Source: Bacteroidales bacterium
Lineage (GTDB): Bacteria > Bacteroidota > Bacteroidia > Bacteroidales > P3
DNA: 64,000 nucleotides
Reading direction: 5' to 3'
Assembly: GCA_017479385.1 (NCBI GenBank)
Contig: JAFVCE010000015.1
Location: 168,173-232,172, forward strand
A program made the position numbers and the translations under genes. Numbering within the stretch: the stretch's first letter is position 1; each line of letters starts with the position of its first letter. The notes below the pieces were generated by a model. That model saw only the letters and a program-made list of their open reading frames with translations. It was not told the DNA's origin and searched no databases. Positions 4,965 through 59,842 of this stretch are shown piece after piece.

Positions 4965-5017
4965 TGGAGGGGTTAGGGTCGTGTTGAGGTCGTATTAAGG
5001 TCTGGTTGAGGTCGGGG
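4965..5017 (+). repeat. 11-bp-period dispersed repeat, copy A
   Basis: On the minus strand the units read CCCGACCTCAA, CCAGACCTTAA, TACGACCTCAA, CACGACCCTAA, CCCCTCC: consecutive 11-mers of the same family as copies B-G. It lies between the convergent glycosyltransferase fragment and PHP gene. Confidence 0.8.
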
Positions 5018-5048
5018 AGGGCTCGAGCTGTTGATAACTTTTTTTCGA

Positions 5049-5080
5049 GGTGCGGGCGCCGCTTTAGCGGCGCCCGCACC
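5049..5080 (-). terminator. Strong GC hairpin after the PHP gene
   Basis: GGTGCGGGCGCCGCT (5049-5063) is perfectly complementary to 5066-5080. There is no good U-tract on either side, so it may act as a transcript-end barrier rather than a classical intrinsic terminator. Confidence 0.5.
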
Positions 5081-5165
5081 TTATAGCGCTGATGTCGAGA
5101 GCATTAAACCCAATCCTCACCCCCTCTGCTCCCCATAGTTGGCCGCACCCTGGTGGGCCAGCTGG

Positions 5166-5942
5166 TCAGCGAGGCAGCGGCGCTTGGCGGAAGGCAACGG
5201 TGTCTATGCTCCGCCCCTCCTCGCCACGCAGCGCGGCGCTGAACTCGGCAAAAGTGCGGTGCTGCATATAGACGACGTTATACACATCGCCCACGTTGTT
5301 GATGAAATGGGCGTCGCTGTCGGTAATAAAGTTAAATCGCTTGAGGTAGGCAAACTTCTTCAGCGTCTCGTCGCGCGTCGTAAAACGGTTAATTTCCAGC
5401 GCGTCGGCACGAATGTCGGGTGGCACAAAACCCAGTTGGCTGGTGAGCGAGGTGGTGCCCTTGTTGATGTGTGCCGGAATAAAGAGCCCCCCAATGCGGT
5501 GCACCTCGTCGTAAAGGCCGTCGATATCCACATCAATGGCGTTGAGCAGGTGGTAAGGCTCTTCGCCCACAATCTCGTCGTTTTCGTCCACAATCAGCTG
5601 GTAACCAAAGCGTTCCTCATCGTTCGGGATAGGGGGGAGGTGCTTGTCCAAAAACTCCTGAAACTCGTCCAGCTGGTCGTCGGTCTCGAAATAAGCCAAG
5701 CAGTGAGCCTCCTCCTGCGAGGTAATTTCAACCCCACCCAGCACAAAAAGTCCCTCGTCGCGGCCAATCTTCTGTGTGGTCTTAACTTGTCGGGTAGTGT
5801 TGTGGTCGGTAATGGCAATCATGTCGAGCCCGCGGTGCAAGGCGGTGTCCACAATGGCGCGCGGCGACATCTCGAGGTCGCCACATGGCGAGAGCACCGT
5901 GTGGATGTGCAAATCGGCTTTGAATGGTGTGATGGGCGTCAC
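5166..5942 (-). CDS. PHP-domain metal-dependent phosphoesterase
   Basis: A 258-residue protein with PHP motifs: KADLHIHTVLSPCGDLEMS (motif I, residues 8-26), MIAITDHNT (motif II), a later HIN and the C-terminal DSDAH. These supply the His/Asp metal ligands. It starts with GTG at 5942; an in-frame stop lies five codons upstream and there is no ATG in between. It follows the DRTGG gene by 66 bp. In many bacteria PHP and DRTGG genes lie together near hydrogenase or NADH-dehydrogenase-like genes; no such genes are seen here. Substrate unknown. Confidence 0.85.
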   Translation of the reverse strand: MTPITPFKADLHIHTVLSPCGDLEMSPRAIVDTALHRGLDMIAITDHNTTRQVKTTQKIGRDEGLFVLGGVEITSQEEAHCLAYFETDDQLDEFQEFLDKHLPPIPNDEERFGYQLIVDENDEIVGEEPYHLLNAIDVDIDGLYDEVHRIGGLFIPAHINKGTTSLTSQLGFVPPDIRADALEINRFTTRDETLKKFAYLKRFNFITDSDAHFINNVGDVYNVVYMQHRTFAEFSAALRGEEGRSIDTVAFRQAPLPR

Positions 5943-6008
5943 TATCTTGCTGTTTTAGCGTTACTTACGTGGTTTTGCGCGGCTCGATTTTCCTCCCCGT
6001 TGGCCAGA

Positions 6009-6344
6009 TTAATTGTTAAGCAACTGGTAAATCTTGCCCACAGTTTCGTAGGTCTGCATCTTTGTGCTCAAGAAAGGTATACCCTCCTCGTTGCTCTGCC
6101 CCTTGGTGTCGTCGCTGGCGTCGAGCCCCTTCACCAATATCACGCAGGCCAACTCCTTCAGCGAAGCAATGGCCATCACATTCTTGTGGGTCTGCAAAGT
6201 AACCCAAACGTTGCCCATCTCGGCGTTGCCCATCACGTCGCTCAGCAGGTCGCTCACGTAGCAGCCGTCGATGTCGCGGTCCAGTCCCTTCTCGCCCGAA
6301 AGCACCTTCAGGCCCAGTTTCTCTACAAGTTCTCTGACTTTCAT
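6009..6344 (-). CDS. DRTGG-domain protein
   Basis: A 111-residue protein beginning MKVRELVEKLGLKVLSGEKG, then DRDIDGCYVSDLLSDVMGNA, as in stand-alone DRTGG proteins. These resemble the domain found in phosphotransacetylases and in HPr-kinase neighbours. The start at 6344 fits the family; the upstream extension of the frame is AT-rich and non-coding in character. It is the first gene of a two-gene operon with the PHP gene. A regulatory, ligand-sensing role is usual speculation for the family; nothing here proves it. Confidence 0.8.
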   Translation of the reverse strand: MKVRELVEKLGLKVLSGEKGLDRDIDGCYVSDLLSDVMGNAEMGNVWVTLQTHKNVMAIASLKELACVILVKGLDASDDTKGQSNEEGIPFLSTKMQTYETVGKIYQLLNN

Positions 6345-6465
6345 AATTTCGTCCAATTTTTTAGTAATTGTTTTTCGCGCTGCAAATTTACATAAAAAAA
6401 ATGAATTATAGCGCAACAGCCCCAAAATATTTTTTCACCCCGACCCCGACCCCTGCCCAAGTCTC

Positions 6466-6485
6466 TCCGATTAGTCAATCGCACA
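6466..6485 (+). repeat. Left copy of a 20-bp island-flanking repeat
   Basis: 18 of 20 bases match 14756-14775 (tccgattaNtNaatcgcaca). It precedes the AT-rich accessory block and is paired with the longer repeat at 6993-7045. Confidence 0.6.
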
Positions 6486-6501
6486 CCTGAAGATAGAGAC
6501 A

Positions 6502-6801
6502 ATGAAAGAAGCCATTACAGTTGGACATCTTGCGATGTATTATATGGAACTTTTGCTTTCTATCGAGAATGAGCTACAGTATTCTTCCGATGACCCACAT
6601 GGAAACAAACTCCGTCTTTTTTATAAATTTTCAGAGAAACTTGGCTATTGTTTGCAAGTCGCGCTCAAGATTAATGTTGGAATCGCCCAAGACAAAATGC
6701 AAGATTCGCAAGAAGCTCGACGCAGATGTGAAGAGATGAAAAACAACCACCTTGCTATCGGAAAAGCCTACCAAGAGCCAACGCTTACATATCATTATTG
6801 A
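6502..6801 (+). CDS. Small hypothetical protein of the accessory block
   Basis: A 99-residue predicted protein (MKEAITVGHLAMYYMELLLS...), mainly helical and charged, with no signal peptide, membrane helix or recognisable domain. Its base composition is much more AT-rich than the core genes to the left. It lies between the two halves of the left flanking repeat; the right-hand copy has only 23 bp in that place, so this gene sits in about 480 bp present on one side only. A hairpin with a pyrimidine-rich tail follows. It could be a passenger gene of the island. Confidence 0.5.
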   Translation: MKEAITVGHLAMYYMELLLSIENELQYSSDDPHGNKLRLFYKFSEKLGYCLQVALKINVGIAQDKMQDSQEARRRCEEMKNNHLAIGKAYQEPTLTYHY

Positions 6802-6811
6802 GGATAGATTA

Positions 6812-6830
6812 CCACCGACTTTATCGGTGG
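6812..6830 (+). terminator. Hairpin after the small hypothetical gene
   Basis: CCACCGA (6812-6818) pairs with TCGGTGG (6824-6830) around a 5-nt loop, followed by a T/C-rich run. It lies 11 bp past the stop at 6801. Confidence 0.6.
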
Positions 6831-6992
6831 CTTCTTTGCTCCTTCTTTGTGGGTTCTATGTAGTTCTATTCAATGGTGCGTTGCATGGGAAGTGTAATGA
6901 CATTCGCGTCGGCAACGAATTGGGGGAATCTCAGCAGTTCCCTCGCGTAAGCATATGCGGTTAGATATCGTGCACCTGCACGCACGAGGATC

Positions 6993-7045
6993 TTCTTCGT
7001 GTGTTAATATCTTTATTTGGACTCAATTGCAAAAAAGTTGTATCT
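6993..7045 (+). repeat. Left 53-bp direct repeat of the defence island
   Basis: 48 of 53 bases match 14799-14851, including an uninterrupted 28-bp identity (7018-7045 and 14824-14851). The left copy includes a working-looking promoter. Confidence 0.85.
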
Positions 7046-7048
7046 TTG
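7016..7048 (+). promoter_or_regulatory. Promoter of the 2-TM / Cas2-like operon
   Basis: TTTG 7016-7019, 21 bp, TATCTTTG 7041-7048: a full match to the Bacteroidota consensus. In the right-hand repeat copy the -7 box has changed to TATCTATA, so only the left copy should fire. Confidence 0.8.
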
Positions 7049-7066
7049 CAAAAAAAATAACAACAA

Positions 7067-7333
7067 ATGAAAGAAGAAGAGATCAACGAAAATTCTCCCG
7101 AAATCAAACCAAATGAGAAAGATGGTTCTGATCCTAAAGAGAACACTCGAAGCAAGATAGCGACGCTATATTTATGGTGCTTCTTTGCTGTCATATTACT
7201 TGTGTTTATAACGGGCTGTTGTAAAGATTTTGGAGTAGATGATTACAAAGATTTGATTTTGACTGTGTCTGGCGTTCTGACTGGTCCGCTTGGTTTTATT
7301 GTCGGTTACTATTTTAAAGCATCTAAAGAATGA
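7067..7333 (+). CDS. Small two-helix membrane protein
   Basis: An 88-residue protein. The first 35 residues are charged and acidic (MKEEEINENSPEIKPNEKDG). Two hydrophobic stretches follow, about residues 43-60 (LYLWCFFAVILLVFITG) and 69-83 (LTVSGVLTGPLGFIVGYYF). No signal peptide or known family is visible. Its stop overlaps the start of the next gene as ATGA (7330-7333), so the two are co-translated. In a defence setting a small membrane protein next to a sensor-like partner could be an effector; that is inference from context only. Confidence 0.65.
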   Translation: MKEEEINENSPEIKPNEKDGSDPKENTRSKIATLYLWCFFAVILLVFITGCCKDFGVDDYKDLILTVSGVLTGPLGFIVGYYFKASKE

Positions 7334-7599
7334 ATACTATCATCATATCATATCGATTGGACTCAGAGGCTCCATATCAAGAATTGAGGAACCGAATTAA
7401 AAAATACCCCAATTGGGCACGATTATTTCAAGATGTATGGATTATCCAGACTCGCCATAGTGTTAGAGATGTTCGTGACGATTTAGAAAATGCCATTCGA
7501 GGCATGGGAGAGATTTTTGTAGTCAATATTACAGGTTCAGCATGGGCCTCATATAAAATTGATAAGGAGATGGCAGAATGGATTCATGAAAACATTTAG
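7330..7599 (+). CDS. Cas2/SinR-like small protein
   Basis: 89 residues with the beta-alpha-beta-beta-alpha-beta pattern of the Cas2/VapD/SinR-like ferredoxin fold: NTIIISYRL (strand 1), YQELRNRIKKYPNWARL (helix), DVWIIQT (strand 2), SVRDVRDDLENAI (helix), EIFVVNITGSAW (strand). Such proteins exist both as CRISPR Cas2 and as stand-alone proteins of unknown role or RNases. No CRISPR array or cas1 is present, so it is not CRISPR Cas2. It overlaps the 2-TM gene by 4 bp and is convergent with the gene at 7666. Confidence 0.65.
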   Translation: MNTIIISYRLDSEAPYQELRNRIKKYPNWARLFQDVWIIQTRHSVRDVRDDLENAIRGMGEIFVVNITGSAWASYKIDKEMAEWIHENI

Positions 7600-7665
7600 A
7601 TACTATAAGGTTTTAATTATGACCAAATCTTGTAGTTTATATCCAAAACGTCAGAATACCAAATC

Positions 7666-8052
7666 CTATAATTTCGAGAATATTCTCAAAATTCCTCTTA
7701 CCATTGAAGCTGCATCAATCGATTTAAACGATAATAAGTTACTTCTATTCAGTTCGACTGCAGCTCTCATTTTCTCTATTAAGCGACAGAACTCCTCCTT
7801 TGCGGTTTGAAAATCAGCAAATCTAAGATTTATTGATGATGTCGTCTCCTGTTGTTTCATATGAGGAGAAAATACTATTTCTCCTGACTGTATCAAATAA
7901 TAATCTGCATTATCTTGCATTACTTCTTTTGTACAAAAAACGAAATCTTGTTTAAATTGCGTAATTTTAATTGGGTCTTCTGTCAGATTCTTGGCTTCCT
8001 CAAATAATGAATCTAATATTTGTATTTTCTTCTTGTATGTCATATATCTCAT
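7666..8052 (-). CDS. Hypothetical protein downstream of the methyltransferase
   Basis: A 128-residue AT-rich gene 38 bp past the methyltransferase stop, same strand, so probably the third gene of the helicase-methyltransferase operon. The protein is mixed alpha/beta with long predicted helices at both ends (KIQILDSLFEEAKNL; TAKEEFCRLIEKMRAAVEL). No motif is recognised. An alternative start four codons in (MTYKKK) is possible. It might be an accessory or immunity-type protein of the system, but nothing in it shows this. Confidence 0.55.
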   Translation of the reverse strand: MRYMTYKKKIQILDSLFEEAKNLTEDPIKITQFKQDFVFCTKEVMQDNADYYLIQSGEIVFSPHMKQQETTSSINLRFADFQTAKEEFCRLIEKMRAAVELNRSNLLSFKSIDAASMVRGILRIFSKL

Positions 8053-8090
8053 TGGATTATGTTCTATATGGATGACGATGGCAGAATAAA

Positions 8091-11075
8091 TTATTGTTCT
8101 ATTATTGCGATTTCTTCTTTGGTGAGGTTGTAGAGTTGATAGACTAGGGTGTCTATTTCTTTTTCCAGTGATGAAATATCAGAGTTAGGATTATTTTGCT
8201 TTTTAGCGACAATCATGTCAATCAACGACGTTATGGCTTCTTCTTGTTCAGTATTGGCCTCGGGGATAGGCAGTTGCTCTAACTCATAGATATTAACATG
8301 GTTGTTGGTGCTTGTTTTTCGGAAATACCAATCAATAATGCGTGAGTTGATAATGGCTAATACGTATTTGTTGTTACAATTTGGGTCAAGTGCAATTTTG
8401 TTTACAGAATTACCAAACAAACACCTTTCTTTCCTGGTTAAAGAAACATTAAATCTACGTCTATCTGTCATTCCAGATATTTGCTGACACACAAGGTACG
8501 TATTCAATGTGTTCTTCATTACAATATCATTCTTATATCCATTTTGAACATATTCCTCCACCATTTCATCGGTATAATACCTGTGTACATGACACCCTCG
8601 GTACATCTTTACATCCGTTTGTCTTGTTGAAAAGCAGAAACACTCATTGGTGAGATTGAAGTCGCCCTGAGACGACGATTGTATCATATCGCCAAGAAAG
8701 GTTGTGCCATCGTTCATTTTTTCGACGATAGAAAAATCGTCATGTCGAATGAGAGGGAAGTAATAACCCTGTGGATAGAAATGCAGGGGTGTTTGTTGAG
8801 GAATGACTGCGAAATCGAAACTATTGATAGTGGTTAAGTCATTGTTCGCAGACAAGAGAAATATATGATTGTTGCAAGGCATGCCCTTTGAGAAAAGGAC
8901 AATACAAGTTGCCACTAATGCGCCTTTGAACAGTTGACCTTCAGGGTGTGGTGCCACCTTGGGAAATTCAATCACCTGATATAGATTCGTTTTCTTTATT
9001 AGTAATTCTCTGGTATGCTGCGATGACGAGTCACACATCAAGGAACTCTGTGTTATCAATGCACAAATACCACCATTGCTCAAAATGTTGTACGAATGCT
9101 CTACAAATAGTTTGTAAATATTCTGTTTGCCTTTATCTTTTCCTTCTGAATATGGAAACTTTAGCTTGTCAACAAGTCCCTTTTTCATCTGGAAATATGG
9201 CGGGTTACCAATGACGATATCAAATCCGCCGCGGTCGAAGATGTCTTTGAACCAAGTGTGCCAGAGGAAGAAGTCCTGGTTGGCGGAGGGGTCGAGGGTT
9301 TGCAGGCGAGCTTCGGCGGTGGGACTGATGCCTTGCTGGAGGATATAGCTCTTGACGGTGGAGTTAATCTGTGTGCGGTATTGCACCTTCTCGTTGTGGT
9401 CGGTGAGGGAGAAGTATTTCTTGAGCAGCAGTTGCAGGTTGTGGCGGGTGTCGGCGGAGGAGAAGTCGAGGCCATACTGCGAGGCGAGGGCTTTCTTGCG
9501 GCAGCCCACCTTGCCGTCGAGTATATGGCTGAGGTCGCAGCCCTCGAAACTCTCGATGAGGCTGTTGCCTTGCATGAACTTGTAGTCGAAGTTGGGCAAC
9601 GGCTCCGGTCCAGTGGCAGGGTTGCCGTCCCATTCGGCATCCACCACTATGCTGAGCCAGAAACGCAGGCGGGCGATGTCGATGGCACCGCGCTCTATGT
9701 CCACGCCGTAGATGTTGCGCTCTATTATCTCGCGTTTGAGCGCATAGCGCGGTGTGGTGTCGCCCACCGCCTCGCGGCAACGCCACAGCTCGTTTAGCAG
9801 TCCCATGGGGAAGGCTCCGCTGCCTATGGCAGGGTCGCAGATGCGCACCTCGCGCAACGCCTCGGCCATGGTCTCACGGCAGGGCAGCAATGTTTCCGGC
9901 AATTCGTGCTGCTCCACGAAGTGGCGGATGGCGGGGGATGCTGGTGCCGATGAAGCACCATCCAATCTGCTTTGCAGGTAGGCAATCAGGCTCTCCTTGC
10001 ACATGTAGCGCACAATCTCCTTGGGTGTGTAGAAAGCACCTTTGGCCTTGTTATCCTCGAGCAGGCTTTCGAATATCTTGCCCAGCATCTCGGGGTCCAC
10101 GCCCACCTCGGCATCGTCGGGGTCGTTCTCATCCACGGTGAAGTTATATGAAGCCAAGAACTCGAAGAGTTTTTCGAACAGCTCGGCAGGCAGCTGTATC
10201 TTCCGCTTGTCCACCTCGTCGCGTTCAAAGAGACCACCGTTCAGGTATGGCAATGCCTGCCATTGCCGCAGCAGCTGCATATCCCACCCCTCGCGGTGGA
10301 ATAGGGCTTCGCGTTTGGCGACTTCGGTATTGAATATGCCGAAGAATAGCGGCTCAAGCACCTGCTCGAGGAAGTCAGCCTGTCGGTCGAGGGATTGCAT
10401 GAAGAAGAGGTTCTTCAAAAACTCCGGGTCGCCATCCAGCCATCCTTTCTTTTGCAGGAAGTGGAGGAAGACTATGCGGCCGAGCATCTTCTTCACGTAG
10501 TCGTGGATGACGGCGCCGTCGTACCCCTGCTGTTTCAGCTCGCTGACGATACTGTCGTAGTGGTGGTGATATTCCTTGAAGAACTCGTTGCTGAGGGCAT
10601 CGACGGAGAAGGCGCGTTTGAGGTCGTCGAGGGTGAGCGTAGCGGCATCGATGCGTTGCAGACGCTCCAACGGGGTCTTATACTGCCCCTGTGGGTCGCC
10701 CAGCACGTAGGAGTAGCGTTTGGTGGCGGTGCTGCCTTCGCGCAGGTCGCAGATATAGGAAAGCCTCCAGCGGCGACCGTCGTCGAACACGGCAATGGCA
10801 GCCTCGACGTCATACTTTAAATAAGGGGCAATCAGCTTGCGCAGCCCCACGCGCTTGCGCTCCACGCTGCTGTGCGAGCGGGTGTAGAAGAAACCAATCA
10901 AACGGCCTTCGGCATCCTCGCGATCGCCGATACAGTACACCTCGTCGCCTTCGTCGGTGGTGGCGAGATGCTCGAGGCTTTCTTGCTTATTGAGGTTGGT
11001 ACAGCCGAAGAGGCGGTGCACTATCTCTTCGCTGTATGTGGTATAGTTGAATGGGGCTTGGAATATCTGTTTCAT
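8091..11075 (-). CDS. Eco57I-type N6-adenine DNA methyltransferase (994 aa)
   Basis: The SAM-binding motif DPAIGSGAF is at residues 414-422 and the catalytic motif NPPYF at 624-628, preceded by KGAFYTPKEIV (346-356), the usual order for adenine methyltransferases of restriction systems with built-in target recognition. Residues 1-340 form an N-terminal region with no obvious nuclease motif. The C-terminal third is probably the target-recognition domain. The gene begins 8 bp after the helicase stop. Its last 1.1 kb is clearly more AT-rich than the first 1.9 kb, with the change next to the NPPYF codons (about 9.2 kb), as if the recognition half had been exchanged. Confidence 0.88.
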   Translation of the reverse strand: MKQIFQAPFNYTTYSEEIVHRLFGCTNLNKQESLEHLATTDEGDEVYCIGDREDAEGRLIGFFYTRSHSSVERKRVGLRKLIAPYLKYDVEAAIAVFDDGRRWRLSYICDLREGSTATKRYSYVLGDPQGQYKTPLERLQRIDAATLTLDDLKRAFSVDALSNEFFKEYHHHYDSIVSELKQQGYDGAVIHDYVKKMLGRIVFLHFLQKKGWLDGDPEFLKNLFFMQSLDRQADFLEQVLEPLFFGIFNTEVAKREALFHREGWDMQLLRQWQALPYLNGGLFERDEVDKRKIQLPAELFEKLFEFLASYNFTVDENDPDDAEVGVDPEMLGKIFESLLEDNKAKGAFYTPKEIVRYMCKESLIAYLQSRLDGASSAPASPAIRHFVEQHELPETLLPCRETMAEALREVRICDPAIGSGAFPMGLLNELWRCREAVGDTTPRYALKREIIERNIYGVDIERGAIDIARLRFWLSIVVDAEWDGNPATGPEPLPNFDYKFMQGNSLIESFEGCDLSHILDGKVGCRKKALASQYGLDFSSADTRHNLQLLLKKYFSLTDHNEKVQYRTQINSTVKSYILQQGISPTAEARLQTLDPSANQDFFLWHTWFKDIFDRGGFDIVIGNPPYFQMKKGLVDKLKFPYSEGKDKGKQNIYKLFVEHSYNILSNGGICALITQSSLMCDSSSQHTRELLIKKTNLYQVIEFPKVAPHPEGQLFKGALVATCIVLFSKGMPCNNHIFLLSANNDLTTINSFDFAVIPQQTPLHFYPQGYYFPLIRHDDFSIVEKMNDGTTFLGDMIQSSSQGDFNLTNECFCFSTRQTDVKMYRGCHVHRYYTDEMVEEYVQNGYKNDIVMKNTLNTYLVCQQISGMTDRRRFNVSLTRKERCLFGNSVNKIALDPNCNNKYVLAIINSRIIDWYFRKTSTNNHVNIYELEQLPIPEANTEQEEAITSLIDMIVAKKQNNPNSDISSLEKEIDTLVYQLYNLTKEEIAIIEQ

Positions 11076-11083
11076 CTTGTTTG

Positions 11084-14422: not shown

Positions 14423-14643
14423 AGACGGACAATGTTTTTATGCGCCGCACGCAAAGCGCACGGCGCAGCCCCTGCGCAGACAGCCGCCTGCACAGTGAAG
14501 TTACTGACTAAAGAAAAACGATCCTTGCCGAGCCGCCCGGCGCGCCCCGACGCTACACCGCCACTATGCCACAGCCTCCGCTGGGGGGGGTGATTAAGAA
14601 TATCTTGGACATTATGCCATGTTCATTTGTATAATTCATGCTG

Positions 14644-14674
14644 CAAAGTTACGCTTTTTTTCGCACTTGGCAAA
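14644..14674 (-). promoter_or_regulatory. Promoter of the helicase-methyltransferase operon
   Basis: On the minus strand TTTG (14674-14671), 19 bp, TAACTTTG (14651-14644): an exact consensus match. The helicase start is about 220 nt downstream, an unusually long leader for this window. Confidence 0.8.
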
Positions 14675-14755
14675 ATATATTTCGCATTGGGGGGGGATTG
14701 TTACTCGAAGCAGCCTCAATCAGAGACTTATCAATAACCGCTTAGCGTACGTATG

Positions 14756-14851: not shown

Positions 14852-14970
14852 ATAAAAAGAAGTCAAGTGTGACAGTTGTACCCTTGATAGGTTCATAGAC
14901 ATGAAAGAATTGGCAGATAACTAATGAGCCTCCGATTTGTCTATTGTGCTCAATTTCAGGTCAGAGACGT

Positions 14971-15029
14971 GTTAGGTAGGGGTTGGGGTCGTATTGAGGT
15001 CGAACAAGGCTTGATAATCAGATGGTTAC
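14971..15029 (+). repeat. 11-bp-period dispersed repeat, copy B
   Basis: On the minus strand it starts with a GTAACCATCTGATT end similar to the GTAACTGCTTGATT ends of copies E and G, then TTCGACCTCAA, TACGACCCCAA, CCCCTACCTAA. The other end is not recognisable. It follows the stop of the YfcC gene. Confidence 0.75.
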
Positions 15030-20318: not shown

Positions 20319-20392
20319 CTGCCCCCAAGGGTAAACCACAGTGGTTAGGTGTTGTTGCCATACCCTGGCAACCCCCAACCGCCCATACACAC

Positions 20393-20432
20393 AAAGCCAG
20401 CGGCTCTCATCAACAAGCGAGTCGCTGGCTTT
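20393..20432 (+). terminator. Hairpin downstream of etfA
   Basis: AAAGCCAGCG (20393-20402) pairs perfectly with CGCTGGCTTT (20423-20432). Only a short U-run, partly in the stem. Probable transcript end of the etf operon. Confidence 0.6.
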
Positions 20433-20440
20433 ACTCTTAA

Positions 20441-20520
20441 AAAGCAGGGGGCAACGAGCCAAAAAGATGGGGAAAAGTAGGGGGTAGGGAGCCAAAAAGA
20501 TGGGGAAAAGCAGGGGCTAT
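20441..20520 (+). repeat. 33-bp tandem repeat, about 2.4 copies
   Basis: Units begin at 20441, 20474 and 20507 (AAAGcAGGGG...). The first two differ at only a few positions; gagccaaaaagatgggga is shared exactly. Confidence 0.75.
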
Positions 20521-20551
20521 CAAGCCCAGTGGGAGGGGTGAAAATCGAGGG

Positions 20552-20641
20552 CTAAAGGGCTCAAAATCAATGCTTATTCGACCTCAATACGACCTTAACC
20601 CCTCTCTAACCCCTCCTCAACCCTGTTAATCAGGTACTTAC
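20552..20641 (-). repeat. 90-bp dispersed repeat, copy C
   Basis: Same length as copies E and G. One end AATCAGGTACTTAC (20628-20641) matches 12 of 14 of the E end; the other end is degenerate. The core reads TTCGACCTCAA, TACGACCTTAA, CCCCTCTCTAA, CCCCTCCTCAA: four 11-bp units. Confidence 0.85.
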
Positions 20642-20735
20642 AATGGCAAAAAAAGCACAAAACTAATCGTGTTCGCAGTGGAAGAGCAGTTGCGCCACGA
20701 GCAGCACTTTGTCGGCACAAAAGTTTTGGTAGTAA

Positions 20736-20770
20736 AAAGAGAGAGGGCCACCCTGCGGGCGACCCTCTCT
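20736..20770 (-). terminator. Terminator of the OM barrel gene
   Basis: AGAGAGGG (20742-20749) pairs with CCCTCTCT (20763-20770); on the minus strand a U-run follows (20736-20740). Confidence 0.8.
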
Positions 20771-20807
20771 TGCGATTTGTTTTTATTCCTGTTTTTTTGC
20801 TTTCTGT

Positions 20808-27659: not shown

Positions 27660-27683
27660 GCAACACCAACGCTCCACACAACA

Positions 27684-27710
27684 AAAGGCCCCACCCTGGG
27701 GCCTTTTTTA
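27684..27710 (+). terminator. Terminator of the T9SS protein gene
   Basis: AAAGGCCCC (27684-27692) pairs with GGGGCCTTT (27698-27706), followed by further T. It lies 24 bp past the stop. Confidence 0.9.
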
Positions 27711-27766
27711 TTTATGGCCATATTATATTGCCAGGGCAAGCACGTCGTATTTGCCACCAAATACTC

Positions 27767-27948
27767 GACTGACAAAATGGCAGTCGCCCCGCGGGGCAGG
27801 GTCGGGTTAAGGAGGGGTTAGGGTCGTATTAAGGTCGTATCATCTCTTACTCATGTCTTACTCATCTCCTATTCTTCCCTTACTCATAACTTACAATAGT
27901 AGAGGATGATATAGCGAAAAATAGGCTTAGACTGCCATTTTGTCAGTC
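27767..27948 (+). mobile_element. 182-bp MITE-like element with 19-bp perfect inverted ends (holds repeat copy D)
   Basis: GACTGACAAAATGGCAGTC at 27767-27785 is the exact reverse complement of 27930-27948. Between the ends, 27801-27900 is built of 11-bp units: first GGGTTAAGGAG, GGGTTAGGGTC, GTATTAAGGTC, then units with TACTCAT repeated at 11-bp spacing. No open frame. Each end is itself a GACTG/CAGTC inverted repeat. It lies between convergent genes. Confidence 0.75.
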
Positions 27949-28005
27949 TATGGCCCGTTTTTGGGGCCTCGAGGGGGGCGGGAGAGGGGGTATTGGGGGC
28001 AGTAT

Positions 28006-28047
28006 AAAAAAAGTGCCGCCCTGCACCTCGGGGGGGTGCAGGGCGGC
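28006..28047 (-). terminator. Terminator of the DUF2807 lipoprotein gene
   Basis: GCCGCCCTGCACC (28015-28027) pairs perfectly with 28035-28047; on the minus strand a run of U follows (28006-28012). Confidence 0.9.
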
Positions 28048-28075
28048 GCATGGGGAATGGTTGCGGCGCAGACGT

Positions 28076-30695: not shown

Positions 30696-30778
30696 GCCCG
30701 GGTGGTGGAATGGTAGACACGGTAGACTCAAAATCTGCTGCCGGCAACGGCGTGTGGGTTCGATACCCACCCCGGGTA
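30696..30778 (+). tRNA. tRNA-Leu, anticodon CAA
   Basis: The acceptor arm GCCCGGG (30696-30702) pairs with CCCGGGT (30771-30777; one G-U), discriminator A. The anticodon stem GTAGA/TCTGC encloses loop CTCAAAA, anticodon CAA, reading UUG. The long variable arm (class II, TGCCGGCAACGGCG) and the T arm GTGGGTTCGATACCCAC are clear. The terminal CCA is not encoded. Confidence 0.95.
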
Positions 30779-39412: not shown

Positions 39413-40216
39413 ATGGACGAACAGCTCGTCAGTTTCGAGGCCGTCGAGGCCATGGGCGTGAGCCGCGCCGCCTACGACGAGGTGCTCGCCATACTTGGCC
39501 GACAGCCCACGCTCGACGAGATTAGCACGCTCCTCGCCATGTGGGACAGCAACGGCCGCCAACAAAGCCTCTGCGGTTGGCTTCGCGGGCAGCGCCACAC
39601 CGTCGAACTGCACGAGTACCTCTACACCGGCACAACCGACGAGCACAAAACAATCAAGGAGCCGCGCGTGGCCGAATGTGTGGCCTCGGCCCAGCGCCTC
39701 GCCACCGAGATTGCCCCCACCACACCCAGCCTCGACCCCAAAGGCAACTCGCTATTGCTCTACATGGTGGGCAACGTCAGCACCGAAATTCTCGACTCCG
39801 AATATGCCCAACGCTGCCTGCACTTGGTGTGCAACCCCTTCGCCACCGGCCTCAATGCCGACGACTGCAACTACATCGAGATGATACTCGCCGCCCAACG
39901 CCAAGCTGGCGAGGTTATTGCCACCGCCCCAGTGGGTCGGGGTGGCCTCTTCGTAACCCTCGCCCACGCTCTGCGGCCAGCCGGATTCGACATATTGGCC
40001 CCACGCGAGGTGCGCCTCGACGCCTTTCTTTTTGGCGAAGAGCCAGGGCGCTACGTGGCCACCGTGGCCGAGGCTTGCGACGACCATTTTCTGCTCCACC
40101 TCGACCAGGCTCGGCTCAACTGTTGCTTCCTCGGTCGCACCACCTCGAACCGCATTTTGGTCGACGGCTACGACTTCGGCCCCGCACGCAATTTTTCGCC
40201 CTCCGTAACTGCTTGA
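39413..40216 (+). CDS. Short PurL/AIR-synthase-like protein, catalytic site lost
   Basis: 267 residues. The N-terminal stretch AILGRQPTLDEISTLLAMWD follows the FGAM synthetase pattern (GRxPTxxELxxxxxMWSEHCSYK), but the active-site part reads DSNGRQQSL. The C-terminal half (GRGGLFVTLAHALRPAGFDI ... VRLDAFLFGEEPGRYVATVA) resembles the last AIRS domain of PurL (SDGGLFxTLxE, FGExQSR). The central domains and glutaminase are absent. It is probably not a purine enzyme; a regulatory or relic protein is possible. The last codons and stop lie inside repeat copy E. Confidence 0.6.
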   Translation: MDEQLVSFEAVEAMGVSRAAYDEVLAILGRQPTLDEISTLLAMWDSNGRQQSLCGWLRGQRHTVELHEYLYTGTTDEHKTIKEPRVAECVASAQRLATEIAPTTPSLDPKGNSLLLYMVGNVSTEILDSEYAQRCLHLVCNPFATGLNADDCNYIEMILAAQRQAGEVIATAPVGRGGLFVTLAHALRPAGFDILAPREVRLDAFLFGEEPGRYVATVAEACDDHFLLHLDQARLNCCFLGRTTSNRILVDGYDFGPARNFSPSVTA

Positions 40217-40294
40217 TTCATAGGGTTGAGGAGGGGTTAAAGAGGGGTTAAGGTCGTATTGAGGTCGAATAAGCCTTATCAATCAGGCATTTAC
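40205..40294 (+). repeat. 90-bp dispersed repeat, copy E (overlaps the stop of the preceding gene)
   Basis: Ends GTAACTGCTTGATT (40205-40218) and AATCAGGCATTTAC (40281-40294) are inverted copies, 12 of 14. The core on the minus strand reads TTCGACCTCAA, TACGACCTTAA, CCCCTCTTTAA, CCCCTCCTCAA. The first bases supply the final Val-Thr-Ala-stop of the PurL-like gene. Confidence 0.88.
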
Positions 40295-40410
40295 GACCCG
40301 ATTTTGGCCCGATTTTGGCTCGTGCGCGACATGAATTTAACTTGATTTTAACACTATTTTTAACCGACTTTTTCTCGACCGTACCCCGATTTTTGCCCGA
40401 GATTGACCCC

Positions 40411-53382: not shown

Positions 53383-53433
53383 CATAATAAAATTCCGCAT
53401 TTCACGTTATTGAATAAAAAACACAACCACATT

Positions 53434-54054: not shown

Positions 54055-54119
54055 TAGGTACCAAAATCGCTATACAATCAAGACCATAACGTAAGCCACA
54101 CACAACAACACCCTTTTTT

Positions 54120-54207
54120 GCCCGACCTCAACCCGACCTCAACCCGACCTTAATACGACCTCAATACGACCCTAACCTATCCCTAACCCTGATAATCAAA
54201 TAGTTAA
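54120..54207 (-). repeat. 11-bp-period dispersed repeat, copy F
   Basis: Five consecutive 11-mers (CCCGACCTCAA twice, CCCGACCTTAA, TACGACCTCAA, TACGACCCTAA), then a CCTATCCCTAACCCTGAT part and the end AATCAAATAGTTAA (54194-54207). The opposite inverted end is absent. It ends 18 bp before the thioesterase start. Confidence 0.85.
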
Positions 54208-54225
54208 GTCGAAAAATAGTTGTAT

Positions 54226-54666
54226 ATGACTGAAAATCAAAGTGTTAATACTTGTAAAAATAACCTTTTAGACCTTGTTCGAACCACCTTTTCGGCCGAC
54301 CACTATGCAGTGTCGGCCACGGGGGTCGAAATCGATGCCGTGGCCGACCATTTTGCCAAGTGTCGTTTAGAACTTGCGCCCAATCATCGCAACGCGCGTG
54401 GAGCCGTTATGGGAGGTGTACTCTTCACCATGGCCGATTTCGGAGCTGCCATTGCCGCCAACACCGATTGTTTGGACGGAGGCAACCTCGGTTGGGTGTC
54501 GCTCAACGGCGTAATCCACTACCTTTCTACTACACGTGGTGAGCGATTGGTTTCCGAAACGCGCTGTGTTAAACTTGGCCGCACCACGGCGCTCTATCGC
54601 ACCTCTATCCTTGATGGTGACCGCTTGGTGGCCGAGGTCGAGACCACCATGGTGCGTGTGGGTTGA
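54226..54666 (+). CDS. Hotdog-fold thioesterase (PaaI type)
   Basis: 146 residues. The hotdog core shows HRNARGAVMGGVLFTMADFG, where the helix after GGV carries the catalytic Asp, and VSLNGVIHYLSTTRGERLVS. PaaI-type thioesterases release CoA from aryl- or acyl-CoA. The ATG at 54226 is preferred to a TTG two codons earlier. No promoter box is obvious between it and repeat copy F. Convergent with lpxA (5-bp gap between stops). Confidence 0.85.
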   Translation: MTENQSVNTCKNNLLDLVRTTFSADHYAVSATGVEIDAVADHFAKCRLELAPNHRNARGAVMGGVLFTMADFGAAIAANTDCLDGGNLGWVSLNGVIHYLSTTRGERLVSETRCVKLGRTTALYRTSILDGDRLVAEVETTMVRVG

Positions 54667-54671
54667 GTGGC

Positions 54672-55460
54672 CTACTCGTCGCGTTTCATGAAGCTGTAAC
54701 CCTTCATCAGGCCAGTGGTTGCCGAACCGATGAAAGCCAGAATTTGCTTGCCCTCGTCGGTGTGGCCATACTTCTCCTTGATGATTTCGGTGGCGGAGGA
54801 GACGGTGAGGCCTTTTTGGAACAACTCGCGGTAGATGCCCTGTATGGTGTTGATAGACTCGCGCGAAAAGCCGCGACGTTGCAAGCCAAGCGAGTTCACG
54901 CCGGCGTAGGATATGGGGTAGCGAGCAGCTTTGACAAAAGGCGGTATATCCTTGTCTATCAGTGCGCCACCTTGCGTAATGACGTGCGAGCCGATGTGTA
55001 TAAACTGCAAGCACGCCGTTTTGCCGCCCAAAATAACATAGTCGCCAACAATGATGTGGCCAGCCAACGTGGCGTTGTTGGCAAAGACACAGCAGTCGCC
55101 CACCACGCAGTCGTGGGCCACGTGGACGTAAGCCATAAGCAGGTTATTGTTGCCAATGACAGTTTTGCCACTGGCGGCGGTGCCGCGGTTAATGGTGCAG
55201 CATTCGCGTATGGTGTTGCCGTCGCCAATTTCGACGGTGGTGTATTCGCCGGCAAACTTCAGGTCTTGTGGAACAGCGGCGATTACTGCGCCGGGGAATA
55301 TTCGGCAGTTGGCGCCGATACGGGCACCGGGGAAGATGGTCACGTTAGGACCTATCCATGTATTGTCGCCAATTTCAACGTCGTTGCCGATGGTGCTGAA
55401 GTTGGAGATGGTCACGTTTTTTCCGATTTTTGCATCGGGGTGTAAGTCGTAAAGTACCAT
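54672..55460 (-). CDS. lpxA: UDP-N-acetylglucosamine acyltransferase LpxA
   Basis: 262 residues, a left-handed beta-helix with hexapeptide repeats (IGPNVTIFPGARIGANCRIF in part). HVAHDCVVGD includes the catalytic His, and LGLQRRGFSRESI begins the C-terminal helical part. It adds a 3-hydroxyacyl chain to UDP-GlcNAc, the first lipid A step. Starts 2 bp after the lpxC stop. Confidence 0.95.
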   Translation of the reverse strand: MVLYDLHPDAKIGKNVTISNFSTIGNDVEIGDNTWIGPNVTIFPGARIGANCRIFPGAVIAAVPQDLKFAGEYTTVEIGDGNTIRECCTINRGTAASGKTVIGNNNLLMAYVHVAHDCVVGDCCVFANNATLAGHIIVGDYVILGGKTACLQFIHIGSHVITQGGALIDKDIPPFVKAARYPISYAGVNSLGLQRRGFSRESINTIQGIYRELFQKGLTVSSATEIIKEKYGHTDEGKQILAFIGSATTGLMKGYSFMKRDE

Positions 55461-55462
55461 AA

Positions 55463-56386
55463 TTATTGTGGATTGTTCGTTGTGTAGTTGGTTATGTAGT
55501 TGGCAAAAGCCACGTTGGCTTTATGGCCTGGTTTAAAAATGCGGAAGCGTGCGTTGAACGTTGTCCCAACAAGTCGGATGTCGCCAATGAAGTCGAGCAA
55601 CTTGTGGCGGGCAGGCTCGTTGCTAAAGAATGGGTCGGTAGTGTTGAGCACACCGTCGTGGACTTTGAAGTGCGAAGCGTCTTTGTTGAAAGTCTTTTCG
55701 AGCCTCTTCAGTTGGCGTGGACTCAGTTCTTTGTTCACAAAAACGAGGGCGTTGTCGAGGCTGCCACCTTTGATGAGGTTGAGTTTGAGCAGAGGTTCAA
55801 TCTCGTGCAAAAAGACGAAGGTGCGGCAGGGTGCAATTCCGGCGGCGTAGTCGGTCATGTTTTCGAGCGTGGCTTCCTGGCAGCCGATGACGCTGTTGGG
55901 AAAGTCTATTTTGCAGTCGACGGCAAAGTGGTCGCAAGGCTCAACGTCGTAGATGGAGCCTGTGTTTTTTACCTCGAAATGGAGCGGTTCTGATATGGTG
56001 TAAACTTTGCGTTCGGCAGCCAGTTCTTGCGAGCCGACGCGCGTTAGTTGCAACATCCAGGGGCGTGACGAACCGTCGAGGATGGGTATTTCGCCGCCGT
56101 CGAGTTCGATAATAGCGTTGTCTATCTGTGCTCCGTGGAGGGCAGACATCAGGTGTTCGATTGTGGCGATGGTGTGTCGTCCCGAACCGAGGGTGGTGCC
56201 GCGGGCTGTCTCGCCAATTGAGGCGGCTCGAGCTGGCTGGGTGATGATGTTGGTGCAGTCGGTGCGGCGAAAGACTATGCCGAAATCGGGCGGAGCCGGT
56301 TTCACCACCACGGTGACGGTGCGCCCCGTGTGGAGTCCTAAGCCAGTGAGTCGGAATTCTTTTTTTACAGTAGTTTGGTGAATCAT
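55463..56386 (-). CDS. lpxC: UDP-3-O-acyl-GlcNAc deacetylase LpxC, not fused to FabZ
   Basis: 307 residues. Zinc ligands: IEHLMSALHG (His near 80), and HKLLDFIGDIRLVG (His and Asp near 260). In most Bacteroidota LpxC is fused to the dehydratase FabZ, giving about 460 residues; here the frame stops at the end of the LpxC domain and lpxA begins 2 bp later. FabZ must therefore be encoded elsewhere. Third gene of a guaA-LysM/PBP-lpxC-lpxA unit. Confidence 0.93.
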   Translation of the reverse strand: MIHQTTVKKEFRLTGLGLHTGRTVTVVVKPAPPDFGIVFRRTDCTNIITQPARAASIGETARGTTLGSGRHTIATIEHLMSALHGAQIDNAIIELDGGEIPILDGSSRPWMLQLTRVGSQELAAERKVYTISEPLHFEVKNTGSIYDVEPCDHFAVDCKIDFPNSVIGCQEATLENMTDYAAGIAPCRTFVFLHEIEPLLKLNLIKGGSLDNALVFVNKELSPRQLKRLEKTFNKDASHFKVHDGVLNTTDPFFSNEPARHKLLDFIGDIRLVGTTFNARFRIFKPGHKANVAFANYITNYTTNNPQ

Positions 56387-56396
56387 AGCGATTTAG

Positions 56397-57914
56397 TTAT
56401 CGATTAGTAACGGGAGTCATTTGCAGGTCTACCATTTTGTAGAGTATGGCTGTGGCGTTTTCGAGGCCCGAGGCGCTATCGTTGCGGCCGAGGCGTATTG
56501 GGGCCATCATGCCTGGTGCAGGGCCTGTTGGGGTGACCCAAAAATCGTTGCCCGATGTTTTGAGCCCGTTGACGAAGTAGCGCACTATGTCGTTGCCGAG
56601 GGCGGCGAATTGGCCGGTGGGTTCGGTTTTATAGGCTTCGCGGAAGGCTGTAAGGAAGTCGGAGTGGGTGCTGTTGGCCATATCCCAGTCGGTGTAGAAA
56701 GTGTGGTAGGAGAGGTGTTGCAGTTGCGAGAAGTCGATGTCGGAATACTCGCGTGTCCAGTCGTTGTAGGTGTAGAGTGTGGGTTGGTCTTTCTTGAAGG
56801 AACTCAGTTTGTTGAGTAGGGTGCTGACGTAGACGCGGTTCTTGCTCCGGTCTTGGTCGTAGATGCTTACCACTACGCTCGAGGGGGTGGTTTTGAGGGT
56901 GGTGGCGAGTTTGGCGTTTTGCGACCAGTTGAAGATGGTGTATTTTATGTCGCCACGGTTGTCGAGCTGTTTTTTGAGTTCGTCGAGTTGTTCTTTTTCG
57001 CTTTTCGAGCCGGAGTGTATTATATAAAGGTGTTGGCCGGGGTGCTCTTTGCTGATGTTGCTGAGCATGGCTTTGGTGCGGCCGGCGAGCGAGGGCATAC
57101 ATTTTACCACATAGGGGTTGTCATGTGTGATTTCGCTGCGGGTCGACATGGGGTTGATTACATGCACGCCGGCTTGGCTGGCGAGGACAGCTGCTTCGGC
57201 AAAGGCGTCGCGCATGAGCAGGGTGACGATGAAGTCGCAACTGGCCAGGTTGTGGCTTTCGAAAGCTTGGCGGACGCTTTCGGGCTTGCCGTCCGAGACG
57301 TCGGCCACCACGAGGTCGACCCTTGTGCCTTGGCTGCCCAGCTGGTTGAGGGCGAGCATCATGCCTTCGTAGAACTCGATGAATTCGAATTGTTTGTACG
57401 ATTTCTTGCCACGTTGTTCGACGTCGAATTTCGAGGTCGATATGGCGTCGATTTGGTCAAGGTAGAGGGGCATGATGAGGCCTATCTTGATGTGGTTTTT
57501 GTCGGTCAGGCGCGGTTTGGTGGCTTGGGTTATGGCCGGTTTGGGGCGCTGCGGGGTGGTTTGGCCGGTGGGTGTTTGGGTTGTGGTTGTGGCAGGCCTG
57601 TCAGTTGGGGCTGACTTTTTGTCAGTCTCGGTGGTCTGGCCTGGTAGTTGTTGGCCTCGACATGGCAGCCATACGGTGTCGCCTGGTTCGAGAAAATGGA
57701 TGTCTTTGTGGGTAACGGCGTCGTATGACTTAAGTCCATAGGCCTTTGAAATAGAGTATACGGTTTGTCCCTTTTCGACTATATGGACGTAGTATTTGCG
57801 GCCGTTTAGGGTCTGGGTTTCTGTTGTGACTTTGACCGGGGCGGTGCCTGGGGCTTGGGCCGCAGCGCTGCAGGCGAGCAGCAGTGCCGTTATTGCAAGG
57901 ATGGTGCGTTTCAT
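56397..57914 (-). CDS. LysM protein with type 1 periplasmic-binding domain
   Basis: 505 residues. A signal peptide (MKRTILAITALLLACSAAAQ); one LysM domain (about 43-90: HIVEKGQTVYSISKAYGL, DTVWLPC); a Thr/Pro/Gln-rich linker (about 95-140); then a periplasmic-binding-protein fold (IGLIMPLYLDQ onward) like the amino-acid ABC receptors and LpoA/YraM-type proteins. It probably binds peptidoglycan and may act as a cell-wall enzyme activator or ligand sensor. The start at 57914 gives the signal peptide. Gaps of 8 bp to guaA and 10 bp to lpxC. Confidence 0.82.
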   Translation of the reverse strand: MKRTILAITALLLACSAAAQAPGTAPVKVTTETQTLNGRKYYVHIVEKGQTVYSISKAYGLKSYDAVTHKDIHFLEPGDTVWLPCRGQQLPGQTTETDKKSAPTDRPATTTTQTPTGQTTPQRPKPAITQATKPRLTDKNHIKIGLIMPLYLDQIDAISTSKFDVEQRGKKSYKQFEFIEFYEGMMLALNQLGSQGTRVDLVVADVSDGKPESVRQAFESHNLASCDFIVTLLMRDAFAEAAVLASQAGVHVINPMSTRSEITHDNPYVVKCMPSLAGRTKAMLSNISKEHPGQHLYIIHSGSKSEKEQLDELKKQLDNRGDIKYTIFNWSQNAKLATTLKTTPSSVVVSIYDQDRSKNRVYVSTLLNKLSSFKKDQPTLYTYNDWTREYSDIDFSQLQHLSYHTFYTDWDMANSTHSDFLTAFREAYKTEPTGQFAALGNDIVRYFVNGLKTSGNDFWVTPTGPAPGMMAPIRLGRNDSASGLENATAILYKMVDLQMTPVTNR

Positions 57915-57922
57915 GATATTAT

Positions 57923-59449
57923 TTATTCCCACTCGATGGTTGCGGGCGGTTTTGAACTGATGTCGTAGACCACGCGGTTCACTCCCTTGACGCGGTTGAT
58001 GATGTCGTTCGATACGCGTGCGAGGAAGTCGTAAGGCAGGTGGCTCCAGTCGGCCGTCATACCGTCTACGCTCTCGACGGCGCGCAGGGCCACGACGCTC
58101 TCGTAGGTGCGTTCGTCGCCCATAACGCCCACGCTCTGCACCGGAAGGAGCATGCAGCCGGCTTGCCACACTTTGTCGTAGAGGCCGCTTTGGCGCAGTC
58201 CGCTGACGAAGATGTCGTCTACCTCTTGTAGTATGCGGACTTTCTCGGGAGTGACGTCGCTCAGAATGCGTATGGCCAGGCCTGGGCCGGGGAAGGGGTG
58301 GCGGCCGATGAGTTCGTCTTTGATGCCGAGTTGGCGACCCACGCGGCGCACCTCGTCTTTGAACAGGCTGCGCAGTGGTTCGACGAGTTGCAACTTCATG
58401 TAGTCGGGCAACCCGCCCACGTTGTGGTGGCTTTTGATGGTTTGGCTGGGGCCTTTGACGCTCGACGATTCAATCACATCGGGGTATATCGTGCCTTGCC
58501 CCAGATATTTAGCGTCGGTGATGAGTTTGGCTTCGGCGTCGAAGACGTCGATAAAGGTTTTGCCGATGGCTTTGCGTTTCTTTTCGGGGTCGGTGACGCC
58601 GGCCAGTACGCTGTAGAAGCGCTCTTTGGCGTCGACACCCTTGACGTTGAGGCCCATGCCGCGATATTGTTCGAGCACGCCTTCGAACTCGTTTTTGCGC
58701 AGCAGGCCGTTGTCGACAAAAATGCAGTGCAGTTGGTGACCGATGGCGCGATTGAGCAGCACGGCAGCCACGGTGCTATCAACTCCGCCGCTGAGGCCGA
58801 GCACCACCTTGTCGCCCCCAATCTTGGCGCGCAGGTCGGCAACGGTGGTTTCGATGAACGAGGCGGGGGTCCACGACTGGTCGCAGCCGCAGATGTCGAC
58901 CACAAAGTTGCGCAATATCGTCAGCCCGTCGACCGAGTGGTGAACCTCGGGGTGGAACTGTATGGCGTAGGTTTCTTCGCCCTCAATCTGGTAGCCGGCG
59001 TTGGCCACCGTCTGGGTCGAGCAGATAACGCGATAGCCCTGCGGCAGGGTGTTGATGGTGTCGCCGTGGCTCATCCAAACTTGGCTGCCTTCGGGCACGT
59101 TGCGCATAAGTGGGTTGCTTTTGTCGACGTAGCAGAGGTTGGCGCGCCCATATTCGCGGGTTTGCGACTGCTCTACGCTGCCACCGCCATATTTGGCCAG
59201 GTATTGAGCGCCGTAGCACACGGCCAGCAGCGGCATTTTGCCCTTGATGGCGCTCATGTCGGGCACCGGCGCGTCGGCGGCGTTGCAGCTGTAGGGGCTA
59301 CCAGAGAAGACCACGCCTTTGACCTCGGCACCAAGGGCCGGTATCTTGTTGTAGGGGTGAATTTCGCAGTAAACATTCAGTTCGCGAATTTTGCGAGCAA
59401 TGAGCTGAGTGTATTGAGAACCAAAATCTAAGATGACAATAGTGTCCAT
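57923..59449 (-). CDS. guaA: GMP synthase (glutamine-hydrolysing)
   Basis: 508 residues. Glutaminase domain: nucleophile Cys in [16 protein letters not shown], His/Glu in [12 protein letters not shown]-pyrophosphatase domain: [17 protein letters not shown]-terminal dimer domain ends PPATIEWE as in all GuaA. It makes GMP from XMP. First gene of the unit leading into lpxC-lpxA. Confidence 0.97.
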
Positions 59450-59752
59450 ATTCTCTGTATTATTTTAAAAAGCAAAGATACGCACTTTTTTTGAATTAGC
59501 GAAAAAAATCTTTGTCGTGGTACAATATTTTGTTCTCTTGGTCGTTAATATAAATGTTGCGAGCGCGCTAAAAGTGGCCTCAGGCTTGGCGCAAACCTCA
59601 ACCTCGTGGTTCGGAGGCAAAAAAGCCTCGGATGGTACCGGTTGGGGCGCGCTGCGCAGACGTAAAACGCTTGGTTACAATAGCTTAAAACTTCGTCAAA
59701 CAGCCAGTCTGCCTCGCCTTGAAGAGGGGTAGGCGAGGGGTTTGCTCGAATT

Positions 59753-59842
59753 GTAACTGCTTGATTGTCAAGCCTTGTTCGACCTCAATACGACCCTAAC
59801 CCCTCCTTAACACGACTTAAGGCCTATAAATTAGGCAGTTAC
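59753..59842 (-). repeat. 90-bp dispersed repeat, copy G
   Basis: Ends GTAACTGC (59753-59760) and GCAGTTAC (59835-59842) are perfect inverted 8-mers, and similarity continues for 22 bp (16 matches). Core: TTCGACCTCAA, TACGACCCTAA, CCCCTCCTTAA, CACGACTTAAG. Confidence 0.88.

Follow-up and report, generated by a model that had tools for sequence, protein, structure and literature searches.

A short repeat dispersed through the genome of a Bacteroidales bacterium stands in register with a weak, chromosome-wide GC pattern of 11.000 bp in the coding DNA. The best explanation, offered tentatively as a real possibility, is that the copies are REP/BIME-like elements that share the register of a nucleoprotein lattice of integer step and perhaps nucleate it.

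Copies in the window

Within the window, the whole stretch of 64,000 nucleotides that was analysed, 11-bp units are present at all seven positions where a preliminary description had placed them. The gaps given below lie between genes called with a simple in-house script, not a standard gene caller, and TRF arrays are those with a score of at least 40.

4955-5017, minus strand: array copy, not of type A, in the convergent gap 4702-5165
14940-15029, minus strand: type A copy in a tandem gap; left end at 15016-15029, boundary at 14940 set by length
20552-20641, plus strand: type A copy of 90 bp, downstream of an ETF alpha gene, in the convergent gap 20319-20807
27789-27839, minus strand: CGACC-type array in the convergent gap 27660-28075
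27840-27894, no strand: adjoining 11-bp array with a different unit (TCATCTCTTAC), found by TRF; resembles congener units, e.g. those of genome G028
40205-40294, minus strand: type A copy of 90 bp in the convergent gap 40217-40410
40297-40319, no strand: two CCCGATTTTGG units with a period of 11, beyond the left end of the copy at 40205-40294, found by TRF
54120-54207, plus strand: array copy, not of type A, in a tandem gap
59753-59842, plus strand: type A copy of 90 bp with inverted ends in a divergent gap; stem in fold, z -4.91

The type A core TTCGACCT opens four of the seven sites (14971, 20552, 40205 and 59753), and the right end of the 14971 copy (14940-15029) is unrecognisable. Four sites have a TRF period of 11 or 22 (at 4973-5014, 27840-27894, 40223-40251 and 54121-54171), and there is no such call at 14971, 20552 or 59753 at a score of 40 or more. 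By the in-house gene calls four copies (4965, 20552, 27801, 40205) lie between convergent genes, as the preliminary description had it; 14971 and 54120 are in tandem gaps and 59753 is in a divergent one. Its observation that the period survives a change of unit holds for the TCATCTCTTAC units at 27840-27894 and for the CCCGATTTTGG units at 40297-40319 next to the 40205-40294 copy. The nearest named records of the ETF-alpha protein belong to rumen and hindgut Bacteroidales MAGs, including Candidatus Colimorpha merdihippi (87%) and 'bacterium P3' (85%).

Structure of the element

About two thirds of all copies are one element, type A, mostly of exactly 90 bp, which reads NTAAnTGCyTGAnnnTCAAGCSTTGTTCGACCTCAATACGACCTTAACCCCTCTTTAACCCCTCCTCAACCCTGATTTTCAGGCAGTTAC over 96 copies. 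Its 11-bp arrays are held between the inverted ends GTAAnTGCyTGAnnnTCA ... TGAnnnTCAGGCAGTTAC; copies of other types carry different left or right parts. A pattern search finds the left end in 82 copies and the right end as well in 56, of which 52 are exactly 90 bp long and the rest 89, 100, 101 and 113 bp. Mean pairwise identity among copies is 0.75, and no target-site duplication was noticed by eye. One site (L025) takes the form of a 44-bp tandem array (4 x 11).

The inverted ends lie at -24 and +64 of the 96 type A copies, as terminal inverted repeats do in MITEs. In the position profile of the same copies the end reads NTAA, preceded by C (0.41) or G (0.37) and with no G after it; this profile lacks the GTAG or CGTC tag that stands beside the palindrome in REP/BIME elements. 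Nor is there the compensatory change that a REP/BIME stem would show, as in 79 copies the number of paired end positions, 15.10 of 24, is the same whether the two ends come from one copy or from different ones. The ends thus match as inverted repeats without covarying, and a protein-read end would be likelier than a paired stem. An RNA or cruciform stem is rejected on this lack of covariation and because three window copies out of five fold only weakly. Site-specific outer arms, striking by eye at loci L018, L036, L044 and L054, were likewise rejected, the outer flanks of 56 copies showing no excess complementarity as a set (p 0.32).

No match to the RAYT domain (Y1_Tnp, PF01797) was found in the genome, and mobilisation by a RAYT is rejected for that reason; the domain is matched in 27 of 37 searched genomes of the genus, this genome being one of the 37. 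Carriage by phage or plasmid is also rejected, with no exact match in viral contigs and no plasmid match. In the window, Rfam reports only a tRNA (30696-30778), and no CRISPR or known RNA family coincides with the copies.

Copy number and placement

The genome comprises 2.28 Mb in 24 unordered contigs. ACGACCTYAA occurs 209 times in it, against 7 for the reversed control, and a search with a core profile, built from 56 hand-picked sites with low or odd matches excluded by hand, gives at least 152 copies, a lower bound with 150 candidates scored. The family is therefore dispersed genome-wide, as had been proposed, and not confined to a few copies; the 11-bp signal at the copies is also stronger than in other intergenic DNA. 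A 36-column weight matrix (accepted sites score 23.3 bits or more, and shuffled sequence reaches 0.4 bits at most) places 149 sites in 139 loci of the genome, most of which were fetched because they hold a site; L025 supplies four of the 149, all from its one array. By setting, 85 sites are convergent, 42 tandem and 6 divergent, 10 lie inside called genes and 6 at locus edges. In all, 133 of the 149 are in gaps between called genes, as befits a high-copy, short intergenic element of the REP/BIME kind. Three of the ten in-gene sites score below 30 bits and may be due to chance.

Placement was assessed on 264 kb, comprising the window and ten 20-kb stretches picked by round coordinates. Here 14 of 15 convergent gaps of at least 150 bp hold a copy, and none of 6 shorter convergent gaps does. 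Of 158 tandem gaps 4 are occupied (1 of 11 among those of 150-300 bp), and of 21 divergent gaps 3. The 150-bp cut is partly circular, since gap length includes the element, and without it 14 of 21 convergent gaps are filled. Presence in the long convergent gaps of this genome is thus near-obligate, and the convergent bias seen in the window is borne out. In tandem gaps no strand bias is found: relative to the upstream transcript the C-rich strand is opposite in 22 cases and the same in 20, on which ground a Rho-loading role is rejected. Distances between copies show no bias modulo 11 (29, 17 and 11 pairs closer than 12 kb), in a test that used only matches starting at model position 1.

Phase lock of the flanking DNA

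Beyond the shared 90 bp, the flanks of type A copies carry an 11-bp rhythm of GC and of A in fixed phase, and the coding DNA around copies is phase-locked at 11.0 bp out to kilobases. From 160 sites, with p-values approximated as exp(-R^2), R on the left is 5.94 (-550..-220), 4.25 (-990..-550) and 2.47 (-1540..-990), followed in farther bins by 2.09, 2.04, 0.89 and 2.50. On the right it is 3.56 (220..550) and 4.18 (550..990), then 1.67, 1.47, 2.14, 1.81 and 0.69. In the controls R does not exceed 0.97 after codon shuffling, 1.05 around 199 stop-codon anchors, or 2.11 at ten other periods; period 10.5 gives 2.05 in one flank bin. In about 72 kb of coding DNA to the left of type A copies, GC ranges from 0.555 to 0.622 by position modulo 11.

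The left and right flanks are offset in phase by 2.51 bp for type A (95% interval 1.86-3.19) and by 1.27 bp for other copies (0.34-2.20). As 90 modulo 11 is 2, the type A offset is as if the copy had entered an existing lattice, and insertion of this kind accounts for it no worse than does nucleation from the copy. The congener G028 shows a modest lock (R 1.9-2.4) around 31 anchors, which are palindromic and therefore not independent; at its six alpha sites the lock is not significant. Genome G023 offers three usable sites only.

Coherence of the coding DNA

The pattern is also apparent without reference to the copies. In coding DNA with copies masked, spectral power at 11.00 grows with window length: it is 1.07 in windows of 176 bp and 3.59 in windows of 11264 bp. 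With the element unmasked, codon shuffling abolishes the growth. At 5632 bp, again unmasked, the power is 2.87 in this genome, 2.76 in G023 and 1.93 in G028, and at the same length it is 0.95 in nine stretches of other congeners and 0.84 in five other families; E. coli gives 1.59, with no peak and a background about equally high. The best period in a scan from 10.960 to 11.040 in steps of 0.002 (element unmasked) is 11.000.

The most trustworthy version of the coherence test compares 550-bp coding windows 0.55-6.6 kb apart, with 11-bp arrays masked, against a phase-randomised null, and covers seven genomes of the genus at period 11.0 only. The z-values are 9.7 in this genome (10 of 11 loci) and 12.0 in G023 (9 of 9 loci), with weak coherence in G028 (3.2) and G001 (2.4). 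Coherence is absent from G009 (-1.0), G002 (-1.5) and G012 (-0.6), all three of which have 11-bp arrays. In runs lacking phase randomisation it is also absent from five other Bacteroidales families and E. coli, and in this genome it is absent beyond 6.6 kb. Same-order genomes from the same source as the congeners are without the pattern, which argues against a data artefact. Pair z-values of the runs lacking phase randomisation are inflated by window reuse; among these inflated values, period 9 reaches 3.7 in this genome and 3.3 in the same-order set.

Codon position 3 is strongest and all three positions are in phase, which makes this a signal at the level of DNA; the pattern continues across strand switches and across copies. 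The preliminary description had regarded the period as close to one helical turn. A period of 11.000 whose phase is constant over kilobases is better fitted by an integer step than by helical pitch. A corresponding period-7 lattice was sought in families with 7-bp arrays and not seen (1.10 versus 0.92, s.e. 0.11), a weak test because the loci are mutually homologous. Period 8 stands at 2.0 in both groups of ETF loci, from the same cause. The genome has two HU-type genes, both ordinary, and an expansion of HU is accordingly rejected.

Relatives and other array families

Matches to the core profile are missing from 57 of the 60 relatives and are weak in the other three (best E 5.8e-6, with stricter filters); judging by this search, the 90-bp element is evidently species-specific. 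Arrays of 11 bp with other units occur in 8 of 15 readable congener stretches, of which a few AT-rich ones may be chance; loci reading N throughout (L101, L102, L108 and L110) are left out of this count. The unit TCAACTCCGAG is dispersed in G023 (131 matches), and GTAGGAGTTGA in G021 (131), G028 (107) and G069 (70), with no match to the reversed patterns in any of these four genomes. Any match at all to the congener unit patterns is found in 14 and 16 of 59 genomes. The 11-bp period thus outweighs the sequence of the unit, being kept across unit changes, in the units of other species and in flanking coding DNA. A potential for G-quadruplexes, which had also been raised, is not a shared property, because no GGG occurs in the units of G023 (TCAACTCCGAG) and G028 (GTAGGAGTTGA, TTGTTCTTCGA).

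G028 has two array families; within 220 kb, 14 of their arrangements are inverted pairs of arrays that match near-perfectly. Its arrays show no convergent preference, occupying 3 of 14 convergent, 7 of 127 tandem and 7 of 13 divergent gaps, and a genus-wide convergent rule is rejected on this account. At ETF loci, grouped as P3-like or other by identity, 23 intergenic lag-11 arrays are found in 43 P3-like loci versus 1 in 37 loci of other families; many arrays of the other Bacteroidales families instead have period 7, and periods at P3-like loci range from 7 to 11. Period 11 accounts for 13 of 19 arrays in this genome, 13 of 16 in G023, 23 of 23 in G028, 9 of 15 in G009 and 5 of 11 in G001. 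With G009 lacking the lattice and G001 weak, the link between period-11 arrays and lattice is suggestive only.

Comparison with known systems

The likeness to REP/BIME elements and RAYT-mobilised REPs of enterobacteria and other bacteria is extensive: these too are dispersed, intergenic, present in 100 or more copies, biased to 3' ends and convergent gaps, bounded by inverted ends and found in species-specific sets. The REP tag is GTAG or CGTC beside a palindrome (PMC3733652). The element described here differs in its GTAA-type ends, in having no RAYT and no covariation of its ends, in the 11-bp array at its middle and in its phase lock to the surrounding coding DNA. STRR and other short simple-sequence repeats share with it short tandem units, intergenic location and lineage specificity. 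The heptamers of this class come from cyanobacteria, Beggiatoaceae and some Bacteroidetes (PMC4679880); the present element, by comparison, has period 11 and is a composite with defined ends that is dispersed as a unit.

Gyrase sites (Mu SGS, BIME-2) have phased G/C beside a defined site and suit convergent transcription, but their motif covers 130 bp, and the pattern here covers kilobases at an exact integer period. The p6 complex of phi29 and GA-1 is comparable, by analogy only, as an architectural protein with an integer base-pair step and nucleation sites; p6 comes from phages and works on a genome that is small and linear; what is seen here is a sequence imprint. Genome-wide periodicity of about 11 bp ('class A flexible patterns', the cyanobacterial 'structural code') likewise involves coding and non-coding DNA and favours third codon positions. 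As described in PMC1242344 that periodicity is fuzzy and does not extend beyond about 100 bp, and a further published signal also covers about 100 bp (PMC4132750); the present one is exact, keeps its coherence up to 6.6 kb and is tied in phase to a repeat. The repeat alone would be a further REP or simple-repeat variant. No known kind accounts for an exact 11-bp coding pattern, coherent over kilobases, with copies locked to its phase.

Alternative explanations

The main rival, also a real possibility if only a tentative one, is a selfish REP- or MITE-like repeat with no host function, which would have expanded in the species and survived where it is least harmful, in convergent gaps, having been inserted or retained at no more than a single phase of an 11-bp pattern of independent origin. 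The species-specific burst, the exact 90-bp form with its pairwise identity of 0.75, the even strand count in tandem gaps (22 to 20) and the offset of 2.51 bp, near 90 modulo 11, all agree with this, and REPs elsewhere are for the most part found between genes that run in one direction or converge (PMC3733652). With 14 of the 15 long convergent gaps occupied, and 1 of the 11 tandem gaps that measure 150-300 bp, the filling is, however, high for neutral insertion, even if gap length includes the element; the genome has no RAYT (PF01797), and both the lattice and the 11-bp period common to unrelated units are left unexplained. Pure replication slippage, generating short simple repeats in the 5-11 nt range, is very improbable: it does not make fixed-end copies of 90 bp at unrelated sites, nor the coding phase lock, and as the whole story it is already disfavoured. 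The many period-7 arrays in other Bacteroidales families, the periods of 7-11 at P3-like loci and the heptamer repeats known from bacteria (PMC4679880) do speak for it, and gain or loss of units, as in the 90- and 101-bp forms, may be explicable by it.

It is unlikely that the copies are topological elements, gyrase-type wrapping sites like BIME-2 that would absorb positive supercoils where transcripts converge. The convergent bias suits such a role, and the phase-locked GC/AT of the flanks resembles, as an analogy, the E. coli gyrase motif, which is degenerate, 130 bp long and of phased G/C, BIME-2 being enriched in cleavage sites (PMC6379681). A 130-bp motif nevertheless contrasts with a lock that reaches through kilobases of coding DNA. 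Wrapping at about 10.7 bp per turn would not predict an exact integer period, and G028 has no convergent preference; gyrase could account for the convergent sites and for the flanks close to a copy, but not for the kilobases. An RNA-level 3'-end signal, whether it terminated transcription in both directions, loaded Rho or formed a stabilising stem, is quite improbable. The convergent position, the pyrimidine dimers that recur on one strand at 11-nt intervals, the well-folding closing stem of 59753-59842 (z -4.91 and -3.42) and the G028 beta copies, which are near-perfect hairpins, would accord with one. Against these stand the lack of strand bias in tandem gaps, the equal pairing of ends within and between copies (15.10 of 24), the outer flanks that are not complementary as a set (p 0.32), the window copies 54120-54207, 27801-27900 and 20552-20641 that fold no better than shuffles, and the lack of an Rfam family.

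Proposed mechanism and significance

If the repeats are indeed in register with an integer-step nucleoprotein lattice, the coding-DNA pattern would be the imprint of a putative DNA-coating architectural protein that steps exactly 11 bp per subunit. The arrays would be its strongest phasing or nucleation sites, and convergent gaps may be favoured because both flanking transcripts end there. A step of this size has a counterpart in p6, monomers of which bind every 11 bp in GA-1 and every 12 bp in phi29, the phi29 protein starting at nucleation sites defined by bendability (PMC10899789). The more general proposal, possible though rather doubtful, is that in some species of the genus the chromosome lies in a protein lattice of exactly 11 bp per subunit, coherent over several kilobases through genes on either strand, which would leave a GC imprint most marked at third codon positions, with arrays in almost all long convergent gaps as phasing or nucleation sites whose units turn over between species while the step stays. 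Among the open-licence PMC papers searched none names such a lattice or element, in keeping with the earlier statement that no Bacteroidales repeat of like design had been described; the preliminary interpretation as a whole is partly supported.

The 11-bp rhythm common to repeats and genes hints at an unrecognised mode of bacterial DNA organisation. Were it the imprint of a protein lattice, it would provide a map of bacterial nucleoid organisation readable from sequence. The meaning of the bacterial periodicity of about 11 bp would then become directly testable, with a register predicted at every gene and anchor sites besides, and there would be a reason both for the filled convergent gaps and for the rapid turnover of repeat units.

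Related arrays in the source genome

Longer tandem units that are multiples of 11 bp are also present on the contig of the window. A 44-bp unit composed of four 11-mers forms a long tandem array (L025, a stretch of the source genome at G000:C3:97200-99400), and a shorter repeat lies within the window itself, separate from the copy at 20552 and directly to its left:

20440-20516, 33-bp tandem repeat (3 x 11)

Three called genes, identified as Mur ligases by Pfam Mur_ligase domains, contain arrays (L033, L034 and L040, on G000 contigs C4 and C5). Some copies other than the main type A are adjoined, as judged by eye, by TTATCAACA or similar words, which we take to be DnaA-box-like (window 4965-5017, L052, L012 and L004). 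Several contigs of this genome carry copies at their ends, within the first 0.1-1 kb (C1, C6, C7, C8, C13, C21 and C22), as though the assembly had broken close to them.

Arrays in other Bacteroidales

Dispersed, near-perfect hairpins occur in the congener G028 (14 in 220 kb), each consisting of two inverted 11-bp arrays of TGTTCTTCGAT units (L291-L300, L114). Around the electron-transfer-flavoprotein (ETF) operon (L117-L196), intergenic tandem arrays of period 7-11 are numerous in rumen Bacteroidales, where they are frequently inverted pairs sited between genes of the same operon; in other families, the arrays are almost exclusively of period 7. At like positions around this operon, both the unit and the period of the array vary by species.
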